From: Pelotomaculum isophthalicicum JI
GTDB lineage: Bacteria > Bacillota > Desulfotomaculia > Desulfotomaculales > Pelotomaculaceae
Direction of reading: 5' to 3'
Length of the DNA stretch: 64,000 bases
Assembly (NCBI RefSeq): GCF_029478095.1
Contig: NZ_JAKOAV010000012.1
Location: forward strand, 1-64,000
A program made the position numbers and the translations under genes. Below the pieces are notes generated by a model. The model was given only the letters and a program-made list of their open reading frames with translations, was not told where the DNA came from and searched no databases. How positions within the stretch are numbered: the first letter of the stretch is position 1; each line of letters begins with the position of its first letter. This document shows positions 15,130 through 37,063 of the stretch, piece after piece.

Positions 15130-15423
15130 GTCTTATCCTCCAATTGACTTAATTCCCCTTATATTTTAGTGTCATTATATGCGGCGTTAGTTACTCTTGC
15201 CAAATTTTGATAATGTGATTTTTAAAAGGCTAGTCCAAGAAATATTAAATTGCGTTGAATGAAGCGAAAGCATGTTGAATTGATAATAGATATAATGAAT
15301 TCAATCACTAAGATGTGGTATGGAATATAAACCCTTACTATCTTGATATTCAGTAAACATATTTAATTATTAGCATGCTTCATGTCTGTTATATTAAAAG
15401 TAACTGTAGGCGGTATCTTAATT
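15130..15423. other. AT-rich intergenic stretch
   Basis: About 290 AT-rich bases between the divergent 74-residue gene and the riboswitch promoter. No frame with a ribosome site, no clear hairpin and no repeat was found in it. Confidence 0.5.
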
Positions 15424-15453
15424 TTGCTATTGAATTATGGAATGTAGTATACT
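15424..15453 (+). promoter_or_regulatory. Likely sigma-A promoter of the c-di-AMP riboswitch transcript
   Basis: TTGCTA at 15424-15429 and TATACT at 15448-15453 are separated by 18 bases. The transcript would start about 15 bases before the aptamer. Confidence 0.6.
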
Positions 15454-15473
15454 CTAACGAAGCTGGCTATATC

Positions 15474-15607
15474 TTTGCCGAATCCCAGAAAATTTGTCAA
15501 CTGGGTACGGGGGAACCATTCATGGGGTGAATCCCAAATTCTCTTAGATAATGGTGAACTTGGGTAGGGTTTCTTTCACCGAACCCGTCAGCTAACCTCG
15601 GAGGCAA
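15474..15607 (+). promoter_or_regulatory. Cyclic-di-AMP riboswitch (ydaO-yuaA class)
   Basis: The conserved ydaO blocks occur in order: GGTACGGGGGAACCA, TGGGGTGAATCCC, GGGTAGGGTTTC, and CCGAACCCGTCAGCTAACCTCG before GGC. A closing stem forms between TTGCC near 15475 and GGCAA at 15603-15607. The aptamer ends only 21 bases before the ATG at 15629, and no U-tract terminator lies between, so control is probably translational or through an overlapping fold. In characterised cases ligand binding turns the gene off. Known targets are cell-wall hydrolases, potassium and osmolyte transporters, so the target here is unusual. Confidence 0.92.
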
Positions 15608-15628
15608 CAAAAGAAAGGGGAAAAGAAA

Positions 15629-16018
15629 ATGGTCAGAACGAAACGTATCCTTTTTGTAGCCGCATCTTGTCTCTTATTGCTTTTTGGTGTACTGGCTAGC
15701 GCAAGTGCCGCAGTGCCGGCATATTCGCTGCAAAGTTGTGCATCAGGTCAATGTCTGAGTGCCTACAACACACAATGTGGCGCCAGCATACAGCAGCCGG
15801 CTTCGCTGGCAAGTATGTTGTCGAATTGTGCATCAGGGCAATGTCTGAGTTCCTGCCCGCAAAGTGCTACTAGTGCATTACAGCAAACTTCGCTGGCAAG
15901 TCTGTTGCAAAATTGTGCATCAGGACAATGTCTAAGTGCCATCAATTCACAACAATGTGGCACTAACGCACAATCCTGTATTACTTCATTGCTAAATTGT
16001 TTTAGTGCCGCAAGATAG
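15629..16018 (+). CDS. Secreted cysteine-rich repeat protein under c-di-AMP riboswitch control
   Basis: A 129-residue protein with a clear signal peptide: basic MVRTKR, a hydrophobic core, and an ASA-A cleavage site near residue 27. The mature part of about 100 residues has three repeats of near 30 residues, each with the exact core CASGQCLS (C37/C42, C67/C72, C96/C101) and a following third cysteine (C50, C76, C110), plus two C-terminal cysteines (C117, C124). The even spacing suggests disulfides or metal or heme-like ligation outside the cell, but this is inference. The spacers are rich in Ser, Ala and Gln (SLASML, SLASLL). I know no named family for it. GAAAGGGG precedes the ATG, directly after the riboswitch. 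Confidence 0.85.
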   Translation: MVRTKRILFVAASCLLLLFGVLASASAAVPAYSLQSCASGQCLSAYNTQCGASIQQPASLASMLSNCASGQCLSSCPQSATSALQQTSLASLLQNCASGQCLSAINSQQCGTNAQSCITSLLNCFSAAR

Positions 16019-16084: not shown

Positions 16085-16120
16085 GGCCGGTGGGAAACCC
16101 CCCCGGTCATATTTATTTTT
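16085..16120 (+). terminator. Intrinsic terminator after the secreted protein gene
   Basis: GGCCGG plus GGG pairs with CCC plus CCGGTC around an AAA loop, followed by ATATTTATTTTT. A C homopolymer in the 3' arm, and another at 16165-16174, are places where base counts may be unreliable. Confidence 0.65.
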
Positions 16121-16237: not shown

Positions 16238-16340
16238 TACCGCCAGGGACTGGACCGCTCCCGGCGATGCGGACAGCCTGGGCAATGCTGAAGCAGGGGC
16301 AGTTTTACAGCATTTTGGCGCCGAAAAAGTAAAAATAGCC
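16238..16340 (+). mobile_element. Scar of an earlier related element outside attL
   Basis: 16238-16312 is about 90% identical to 26003-26077 inside the resident element (end of the ArpU-like gene and start of the HIRAN gene). It then switches at CATTTTGG to sequence like 28612-28639, the right end of the element next to attR. The piece in between, which would hold the HIRAN body, ImmA and integrase, is absent. The ATG at 16285 opens a 15-codon frame that is the cut-off HIRAN start. The simplest reading is the right end of an older sister element with an internal deletion. Confidence 0.7.
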
Positions 16341-16438
16341 AAAAGTAAAAGACTTCCAAAACCTCGGAAGTCTTATTTTCATTGGTGCGGGCGGGGGGAG
16401 TTGAACCCCCACGAGGTTGCCCCCACTGGATCCTAAGT
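16341..16438. repeat. attL: left 98-bp direct repeat with the 3' part of tRNA-Leu
   Basis: Matches 28640-28737 over 98 bases with two differences (16395 and 16409). It holds the tRNA terminator hairpin, CCA, acceptor 3' strand, T-arm, variable arm and half the anticodon stem of tRNA-Leu on the minus strand, then diverges. The two differences pair with each other in the T-stem, so this copy still folds. It is not a full tRNA gene. Confidence 0.92.
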
Positions 16439-25143: not shown

Positions 25144-25271
25144 AGAAAATGCGTAAAATTAAAGAGGAACCATGCGGCAAACACGGTTCCTCACAACAGC
25201 CGCTTTATGGGCGGTCGGCTTCGGAGAAACGGAATAGACCGTTATTCCTTGGGCAGGAGCGGTCTATTTCC
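25144..25271 (+). ncRNA. Putative type I antitoxin RNA
   Basis: A transcript of about 130 bases would run from the promoter at 25110-25137 to a hairpin at 25231-25271 (GGAATAGACCG with CGGTCTATTTCC). It overlaps the 3' end of the toxin gene on the minus strand, as in txpA/RatA and bsrG/SR4 pairs. No long reading frame with a ribosome site is present on this strand. Confidence 0.5.
25155..25192 (-). terminator. Terminator of the toxin mRNA
   Basis: GAGGAACC (25164-25171) pairs with GGTTCCTC (25185-25192). On the minus strand it is followed by TTTAATTTT. Confidence 0.6.
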
Positions 25272-25347
25272 TGTTATGGAAAGAAAGTACCAAAACGACT
25301 AATGTCGCAAATGAAATCATCAGCGTCAAAGCCTGGTATACTTCCAT
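25264..25347 (-). CDS. Putative holin-like type I toxin, 27 residues
   Basis: A 27-codon gene for a single-helix hydrophobic peptide with a charged tail: MEVYQALTLMISFATLVV and then a short end FHNRK. This is the Hol_Tox pattern common in Firmicute prophages. The ribosome site AAGGAGGTGAT is a full match to the anti-Shine-Dalgarno and stands six bases before the ATG. A minus-strand promoter (TATAAT at 25407-25412, TTACCT at 25431-25436, 18-base spacer) and a terminator complete the unit. It is too short for most gene callers. Confidence 0.8.
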   Translation of the reverse strand: MEVYQALTLMISFATLVVLVLSFHNRK

Positions 25348-25406
25348 AGGCATCACCTCCTTCCGGAGGGAATGCCGACCGCCCTGAGCCTTTCTGTTGT
25401 GAAATT

Positions 25407-28589: not shown

Positions 28590-28639
28590 CTTCCAAAAAC
28601 TGCATGGCACCATTTTGGCACCAAAAAAGAGAAAAATGC

Positions 28640-28671
28640 AAAAGTAAAAGACTTCCAAAACCTCGGAAGTC
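28640..28671 (-). terminator. Terminator of tRNA-Leu
   Basis: GACTTCC (28650-28656) pairs with GGAAGTC (28665-28671); on the minus strand TTTTACTTTT follows. The same hairpin is copied in attL at 16341-16372. Confidence 0.8.
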
Positions 28672-28737
28672 TTATTTTCATTGGTGCGGGCGGCGGGAGT
28701 TGAACCCGCACGAGGTTGCCCCCACTGGATCCTAAGT
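28640..28737. repeat. attR: right 98-bp direct repeat
   Basis: Partner of 16341-16438. It covers the tRNA-Leu terminator and the 3' 53 bases of the intact tRNA gene, to the anticodon stem. Crossover must have been within this block. Confidence 0.92.
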
Positions 28738-28767
28738 CCAGCGCGTCTGCCATTCCGCCACGCCCGC
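28685..28767 (-). tRNA. tRNA-Leu (anticodon UAG)
   Basis: An intact class II tRNA on the minus strand: acceptor GCGGGCG/CGCCCGC, anticodon stem CTGGA/TCCAG with loop CTTAGGA (anticodon TAG), a long variable arm and T-arm GCGGG-TTCAACT-CCCGC. CCA is encoded at 28684-28682. Its 3' half is probably supplied by the integrated element. Confidence 0.95.
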
Positions 28768-36286: not shown

Positions 36287-36325
36287 ATTGTTAATTGTCG
36301 GGAAAAGTAGAATAATAGTTTCTTT

Positions 36326-36408
36326 GGCGGGCAGACCATTTCGAAAGAGTGGGGCGCAAAGCCTTGAATCTAAGGTAACTAAGTTGCTATGATTGTCAGG
36401 CTGCAGAA
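36326..36408 (+). promoter_or_regulatory. Cyclic-di-GMP-I riboswitch (GEMM)
   Basis: The conserved blocks are present in order: GGCGGGCAGACCATT, a TCGAAA tetraloop, GAGTGGGGCGCAAAGCC, then TAAGGTAACTAAGTTGCTATG with the closing strand GGCTGC. The ligand-contacting CGCAAAGCC and the tetraloop/receptor layout are typical of class I. It lies about 80 bases before the HD-GYP gene that starts at 36488. Confidence 0.88.
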
Positions 36409-36487: not shown

Positions 36488-37063
36488 ATGTTAGAGGAAT
36501 TAAATAACTTAGTTAAAATGATCTCTATTTACAGTTTAGAAACTTATCAACATTCAGTCAATGTGGGAATAATTGCCACTAGAATAGGAAATTTTCTAGG
36601 ATTGCCAGAAAAGCAAGTTTCGTTAATCAAATATGCAGGTTTGCTTCATGATATCGGTAAAACTAAAATTGATTTAAAAATATTGAATAAACCAGGAAAG
36701 TTAACAACCAAAGAATTTAACATTATTAAAAAACATACAGAATACGGAGTTAAAATACTTTCATCTTATCCTTGGACCAAACCTTTTCTCCAGTTGGTAA
36801 ATTTACACCATGAAAGATGGGATGGCAACGGTTACAATGGTATCCATGGACCAGATATTCCTATAGGAGCAAGGATACTTGCTCTGGCAGATGCTTTTGA
36901 TGCCATGTCTTCATGCAGGCCCTATTCCCCAATTAAAAGTATGGATCAAATTATAAATGAATTAGATAGGTTTAGTGGCGCTCAGTTCGATCCCCACTTA
37001 GTCGAAAAGGTTATTCAGGCTTCAGACAAAGTATTGCTAAAAGATTGGGATGGTGTTGTTTAA
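36488..37063 (+). CDS. HD-GYP-domain c-di-GMP phosphodiesterase
   Basis: A stand-alone HD-GYP domain of 191 residues that would hydrolyse c-di-GMP. The HD motif is GLLHDIGKTKID, and later ligands are in HHERWDGNGYN and ALADAFDAMSS. The GYP motif reads GYN, a small change that does not touch the metal ligands. There is no sensor domain. It is the first gene of an operon led by a c-di-GMP riboswitch, so its product would act on the riboswitch ligand. The next gene starts 14 bases before its end. Codon use is AT-rich compared with the housekeeping genes. Confidence 0.88.
   Translation: MLEELNNLVKMISIYSLETYQHSVNVGIIATRIGNFLGLPEKQVSLIKYAGLLHDIGKTKIDLKILNKPGKLTTKEFNIIKKHTEYGVKILSSYPWTKPFLQLVNLHHERWDGNGYNGIHGPDIPIGARILALADAFDAMSSCRPYSPIKSMDQIINELDRFSGAQFDPHLVEKVIQASDKVLLKDWDGVV

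Follow-up and report, generated by a model that had tools for sequence, protein, structure and literature searches.

A ydaO-class riboswitch conserved with a secreted cysteine-rich protein gene in Pelotomaculum and its relatives: a probable translational switch

What does a riboswitch of the c-di-AMP class control when the gene directly behind it encodes a small secreted protein rich in cysteine, and at what level would that control be exerted? The question is raised by a locus in Pelotomaculum isophthalicicum JI, in the 64,000-nt stretch of DNA that was analysed here as a whole (the window). An initial annotation had proposed that a complete ydaO-class aptamer there precedes a gene for a signal-peptide protein, and that the c-di-AMP regulon would thereby be extended to a new class of secreted product. 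The features with which the answer is concerned are the following.

15322..15348, + strand: conserved DNA element GGAATATAAACCCTT...TTGATA, about 100 nt before the -10 (alignment of six loci)
15424..15453, + strand: sigma-A-like promoter, -35 TTGCTA (15424-15429), 18-nt spacer, -10 TATACT (15448-15453) (consensus scan)
15466..15622, + strand: c-di-AMP (ydaO/yuaA) riboswitch aptamer, RF00379 (86.7 bits, gathering score 38)
15570..15576, + strand: pseudoknot loop strand UUUCUUU, complementary to 15610-15616
15610..15620, + strand: pseudoknot tail AAAGAAA (15610-15616) overlapping the Shine-Dalgarno sequence AAAGGGG (15614-15620), the proposed expression platform (sequence, pairing)
15629..16018, + strand: gene for a 129-aa secreted cysteine-rich protein (ORF translation, homologues, dN/dS)
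16085..16120, + strand: probable intrinsic terminator, a G+C-rich hairpin and then a T-rich stretch (read from sequence)

The leader, the gene and their surroundings

The Rfam covariance search of the window gave a single RF00379 match, at E 7.4e-19 and over the full model (positions 1-134), and the claim of a complete aptamer is borne out. Both the conserved ydaO core strand, CCCGUCAGCUAACCUCG, at 15584-15600 and the loop-tail pseudoknot characteristic of the class can be read from the sequence. The 21 bases that had been placed between aptamer and gene are roughly right when counted from the end of the P1 stem (GGC, ending at 15605, with the ATG at 15629), but the Rfam model itself ends only 6 nt before the ATG, the spacing being dependent on which point is taken as the aptamer end. 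The riboswitch and its target are solid, and binding of c-di-AMP by this aptamer is to be expected from its class. Two genes of the genome, which has five ydaO aptamers, score above cut-off as diadenylate cyclases (PF02457), and the organism is predicted to make the ligand.

Position 15424, with which the locus had been taken to begin, is the first base of the -35-like hexamer. TTTGC(T/G) and GTATACT of the promoter are kept in all six aligned loci, and transcription would start near 15459. A simple fold of the leader, by a program that cannot model pseudoknots, shows no unusual stability (z 0.57). In the consensus scan the stretch from the aptamer into the first part of the gene was free of terminators, and the candidate at 16085-16120 was not picked up either; at the equivalent place of the Pelotomaculum terephthalicicum locus a clearer hairpin runs into TTTTTTT. 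The gene looks monocistronic. Further upstream, GGAATATAAACCCTT...TTGATA is recognisable in five of the six aligned loci and weakly in the sixth, despite differing gene neighbourhoods, and its pattern occurs once in the 3.6-Mb genome. A possible reading is that of a transcription factor site, and control of the gene by a transcription factor, in addition to the riboswitch, is probable. Within the leader, a 5′ element, AGCUGGC, could pair with GUCAGCU of the aptamer core or with the start-codon region, AUGGUCAG. For the latter pairing about 1% of permutations are as good when the leaders of the cysteine protein are taken by themselves (n=5), and there is no significance over all leaders close to a ribosome-binding site; an alternative pairing in the cysteine-protein leaders is suggestive.

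The description of the protein stood up to a count in the ORF: CASGQCLS cores begin at residues 37, 67 and 96, and of 12 cysteines 11 follow the signal peptide (approximately residues 1-28; its cleavage region is of the AxA type and a lipobox is absent). In the mature part, helix-like segments alternate with Cys/Gln segments of the CASGQCLS type up to the C-terminal NCFSAAR. Comparison with the P. terephthalicicum homologue gives a dN/dS of 0.43 overall, which shows a real, constrained protein, and of 0.39 over the mature part alone. The part that encodes the signal peptide (15629-15712) has a synonymous divergence of 0.13, about five times below the 0.68 of the mature part, a hint that the start of the gene is constrained at the RNA level or was recently exchanged by recombination.

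Other features of the window merit mention in their own right. A 132-bp direct repeat (93%), at 16308-16438 and 28608-28737, includes the 3′ part of a tRNA-Leu gene (28682-28767) and flanks some 12 kb with ORFs that are integrase-like (27417), excisionase-like (17715) and primase/ATPase-like (18302, 18913); the segment, one end of which lies shortly beyond the cysteine-protein gene, may be a prophage or some comparable integrated element. Inside it, a full-length match to BsrG, a Bacillus type I toxin RNA, at 25167-25401 on the - strand (57.0 bits against 55) is possibly spurious. An HD-GYP-like ORF at 36488 is preceded by a c-di-GMP-I riboswitch (36320-36408, + strand; 64 bits with a cut-off of 35), probably an ordinary cyclic-dinucleotide feedback arrangement.

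Conservation of the unit and the targets of related aptamers

A search of 25 genomes of the family with both the protein and the Rfam family yielded seven full-length homologues in six genomes, representing five species and three genera (genomes G000 and G015, of one species, G016, G009 and G007, and two loci in G006). In taxonomic terms these are one locus in each of two genomes of the window's own species, one in P. terephthalicicum, three in genus g4, of which G006 has two, and one in genus g5. All seven start 4-6 nt after a ydaO aptamer above cut-off. The arrangement recurs at six distinct loci in five species, while a genome has only about 1-12 such aptamers, which is more than chance would give. 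Gene neighbours differ between genera, from which it follows that the conserved item is the promoter-aptamer-gene unit and not the neighbourhood, and a neighbourhood shared across genera, considered as a clue to function, was not found. The core of the aptamer and its spacing are retained over several genera although the coding region is down to 28% identity (the range over whole proteins being 28-66%). In the remnant present in genome G008 the promoter is fused directly to the C-terminal half of the gene, so that aptamer and N-terminus were lost together in one deletion.

A search for the repeat in other genomes, and for ydaO aptamers before the genes concerned, had been proposed as a check. 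The full-length homologues lie behind such aptamers without exception, but three exact CASGQCLS copies are confined to the window's own species; in relatives the pattern stays rich in Cys, Gln and Ser, the repeat is no longer exact, and the cysteine count of the mature proteins varies from 7 to 15. A C-terminal segment of the type (I/V)xS(M/L)...(R/K) is present in most homologues. The assembly Pelotomaculum sp. PtaB.Bin013 carries an identical copy of the locus, the P. terephthalicicum relative has 63% identity in the best segment, and a scan of genome contigs gave the two Pelotomaculum loci and no others. Beyond the family, neither the class (113 genomes) nor the phylum (398 genomes) yielded a convincing homologue, most of the weak matches there covering just the signal-peptide part.

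The company that the gene keeps was judged from the first gene after each of the 109 ydaO aptamers in the 25 genomes. By a simple ORF rule a start codon follows within about 20 nt for 65 of them and at a greater distance for 43, with about 5 of the 65 being wrong start calls and the true close number near 60; two CAP genes of G006 were counted as distant because of their start calls. Two arrangements are distinguished by target. Aptamers more than about 80 nt from the gene precede K+ and osmolyte genes, mostly those for KimA-like proteins, Trk/Ktr potassium uptake, ProV, lysine and glutamate 2,3-aminomutases, DapB and citrate synthase. Those at the ribosome-binding site precede genes for secreted envelope proteins, namely LysM plus Hydrolase_2 (SleB-like), NlpC/P60, CAP/YkwD and the cysteine protein. 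All five in the window's genome are of the close type, their targets being two LysM hydrolases, two CAP proteins and the cysteine protein. The same two arrangements recur behind 92 aptamers from other families of the order, in a sample that favours high-scoring aptamers; some aminomutase genes are also close there, and a small cysteine-rich target is absent from those 92. These data suggest that the c-di-AMP switches of the family are split by target, translational for the envelope and spacer-containing for transport and osmolytes.

Two further observations concern other leaders. The most frequent ydaO targets of the order include the genes for lysine and glutamate 2,3-aminomutase, the aptamers being mostly 80-400 nt upstream (e.g. 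L012 and L097), and c-di-AMP control of beta-amino-acid osmolytes is suggested. Upstream of CAP genes in genomes G020 and G022, the leaders L048 and L051 have ends (GTCAGCTTTCCCGGA...GGGAAAGGGGAAATGGATATG) that resemble those of ydaO leaders; Rfam does not recognise them even at E 1, and they are perhaps decayed or diverged ydaO elements.

Pseudoknot pairing and the probable level of control

The Shine-Dalgarno sequence sits 8 nt before the ATG and overlaps the tail strand of the pseudoknot, which in the window is A-U rich and contains just three of the Shine-Dalgarno nucleotides. The ydaO construct of a solved structure has the same loop-tail complementarity (CUCCUUCG with CGAAGGAG), and a stable pseudoknot was described for it (PMC5393176). 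Across the family the loop-tail pairing co-varies with the type of target. In LysM leaders CCCUC pairs with GAGGG of the Shine-Dalgarno sequence itself; in CAP and cysteine-protein leaders UCUUUU pairs with AAAAGA abutting it. The mean loop-tail helix score is 14.25, against 12.88 ± 0.21 (sd) when tails are exchanged between loci, and none of 1000 permutations reached as high a value; the figures are for the 70 of 109 loci that passed the core pattern (64 distinct), the loops and tails of which fall into two target-linked groups, and the permutation ignores relatedness.

In Corynebacterium glutamicum, raised c-di-AMP lowers the protein and not the mRNA from nlpC, which is preceded by a ydaO aptamer, and the switch there is most likely translational, repressing at high c-di-AMP (PMC9960051). 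At the Pelotomaculum locus, with the Rfam model ending so near the ATG, a terminator could not be fitted in before the gene. Taken together with the overlap of pseudoknot and Shine-Dalgarno sequence, the covariation of the pairing and the C. glutamicum case, this leads to the reading of a translational OFF switch. At high c-di-AMP the aptamer would take up two ligand molecules, by which P1 and the loop-tail pseudoknot would be made more stable; through the overlap of the pseudoknot tail with the Shine-Dalgarno sequence ribosomes would be kept off, and protein would not be made. When c-di-AMP falls, as at high osmolarity, low turgor or low K+, the ribosome site would open and the protein be exported alongside the LysM/SleB-like hydrolases and CAP/YkwD proteins under the same kind of switch. 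The direction of control, as with ligand binding, is that expected of the aptamer class, and action on translation is most likely, with the gene joining the secreted envelope targets that share one architecture.

The main competitor accepts the aptamer as real and has it act on transcription, with c-di-AMP causing early termination or pausing in the manner of Bacillus subtilis ydaO/kimA. This mode is established in Bacillus (review PMC5575661), and the family's aptamers at 80-400 nt from transporter genes have space for a terminator. Against it are the 6 nt between model end and ATG, the terminator-free scan up to the first part of the gene, and the fact that the same tight spacing is found at all the cysteine-protein loci and with about 60 aptamers of the family. 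Transcriptional control is accordingly regarded as unlikely here. The preferred interpretation, to which a probability of about 0.6 is given, is of a self-contained unit comprising a sigma-A-like promoter, a translational OFF c-di-AMP switch, one Sec-secreted cysteine-rich product and a terminator.

The product and its known counterparts

Pfam and NCBIfam gave no credible match for the product, and the best match in a PDB sequence search was at E 0.11, with no credible relative. A ricin-type beta-trefoil lectin (PF14200) was rejected at 22.2 bits, below the gathering score of 25.6, the protein having no tryptophan and hence no QxW motif; membership of the CAP/CRISP family (PF00188) was likewise rejected, a Pfam scan at E up to 10 giving no CAP match. 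Its AlphaFold model is disordered, with a confidence so low (pLDDT 42) that no functional claim is based on structure. Neither VKOR nor DsbA turned up in G000, G016, G007 or G009 (in G006 there is a broken-up DsbA match), which makes a structural role for disulfides less likely. As a best guess, the product is associated with the envelope, mostly disordered and rich in thiols, and would serve to bind metal or to form cross-links.

Pelotomaculum is a spore former, cysteine-rich proteins are common in spore coats, and deposition of the coat normally proceeds from the cytoplasm of the mother cell. A coat or exosporium component, as had been tentatively suggested for this product, would fit with the first two of these, and two NCBIfam models with spore-protein names are matched by co-regulated products, SleB by the hydrolases (below cut-off) and YkwD by the CAP proteins (above cut-off). 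There is also a link of ydaO to sporulation genes (review PMC5575661). The Sec signal peptide is, however, at odds with the normal route of coat deposition, the promoter looks vegetative (sigma-A-like and not of the type used by a mother-cell sigma factor), no coat family is matched and the gene is missing from most of the order; the suggestion is not upheld and the reading is quite improbable. To a similar degree improbable is a fast-evolving secreted factor aimed at other cells, be it a peptide toxin, an adhesin or a signal to a syntrophic partner. The variability of sequence and cysteine number, the patchy presence and the lack of conserved neighbours are as such a factor would have them, but the dN/dS of the mature part gives no sign of positive selection, no adjoining immunity gene, processing enzyme or exporter is obvious by eye, and the co-regulated genes are for wall enzymes. 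Expression mainly from a start downstream of a relic aptamer is very improbable, there being no promoter-like + strand site between aptamer and gene, and aptamer core and spacing having outlasted the divergence of the coding region.

A small secreted cysteine-rich protein, conserved together with a ydaO aptamer, differs from the known targets (as compiled from reviews, PMC9960051 and general knowledge), and the proposal of a new target class is sustained. Since the aptamer is genuine and conserved with the gene, the c-di-AMP regulon very probably gains a further class of secreted product. Neither the riboswitch class nor a translational ydaO switch, proposed before, is new; what is new is the target family, the split of architecture by target within one family of organisms, and comparative support for coupling of pseudoknot and Shine-Dalgarno sequence, i.e. 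for masking of the ribosome site by the aptamer's own pseudoknot, all in a restricted lineage. A cysteine-rich secreted family hitherto uncharacterised is now tied to a second messenger that is among the best understood, and its function thereby becomes testable, with c-di-AMP level, osmolarity and K+ as predicted controls. A more speculative and, as a whole, unlikely proposition is that c-di-AMP has direct control over the synthesis of an extracellular protein, disordered, rich in thiols and specific to this lineage, with the aid of which syntrophic anaerobes would remodel their surface, cross-link it or retain metal there as turgor falls, the gene having been born from a ydaO-leader-plus-signal-peptide cassette of a CAP gene and a new cysteine-repeat body. 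If true, it would mean a new effector class for c-di-AMP.

Of known systems, the C. glutamicum nlpC riboswitch (PMC9960051) resembles the present one in having a ydaO-class aptamer before the gene for a secreted envelope protein, with no terminator, and in the proposal of translational repression by an aptamer strand pairing with the ribosome-binding site. It differs in that the target is an NlpC/P60 wall peptidase, encoded by the first gene of an operon, and in the pairing proposed, CTCC with GGAG, where the window locus has the loop-tail pairing. The B. subtilis ydaO/kimA and ktrAB riboswitches share the aptamer class and the loop-tail pseudoknot, but work by transcription termination and control potassium uptake. 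The CAP/YkwD proteins behind ydaO aptamers in the family itself (e.g. G000:C20 and G000:C2) have the same leader subtype (AAAAGAAAGGGGAA or near) before the ATG and the same spacing; among the other close ydaO targets the nearest signal peptides to that of the cysteine protein are those of CAP proteins of genus g8. CAP/YkwD proteins differ in their CAP domain (PF00188) and in having 0.35 mature cysteines per 100 residues (LysM targets have 0.49) against 10.6 in the cysteine protein, and the likeness in name to the Pfam title of PF00188, 'Cysteine-rich secretory protein family', is accidental.
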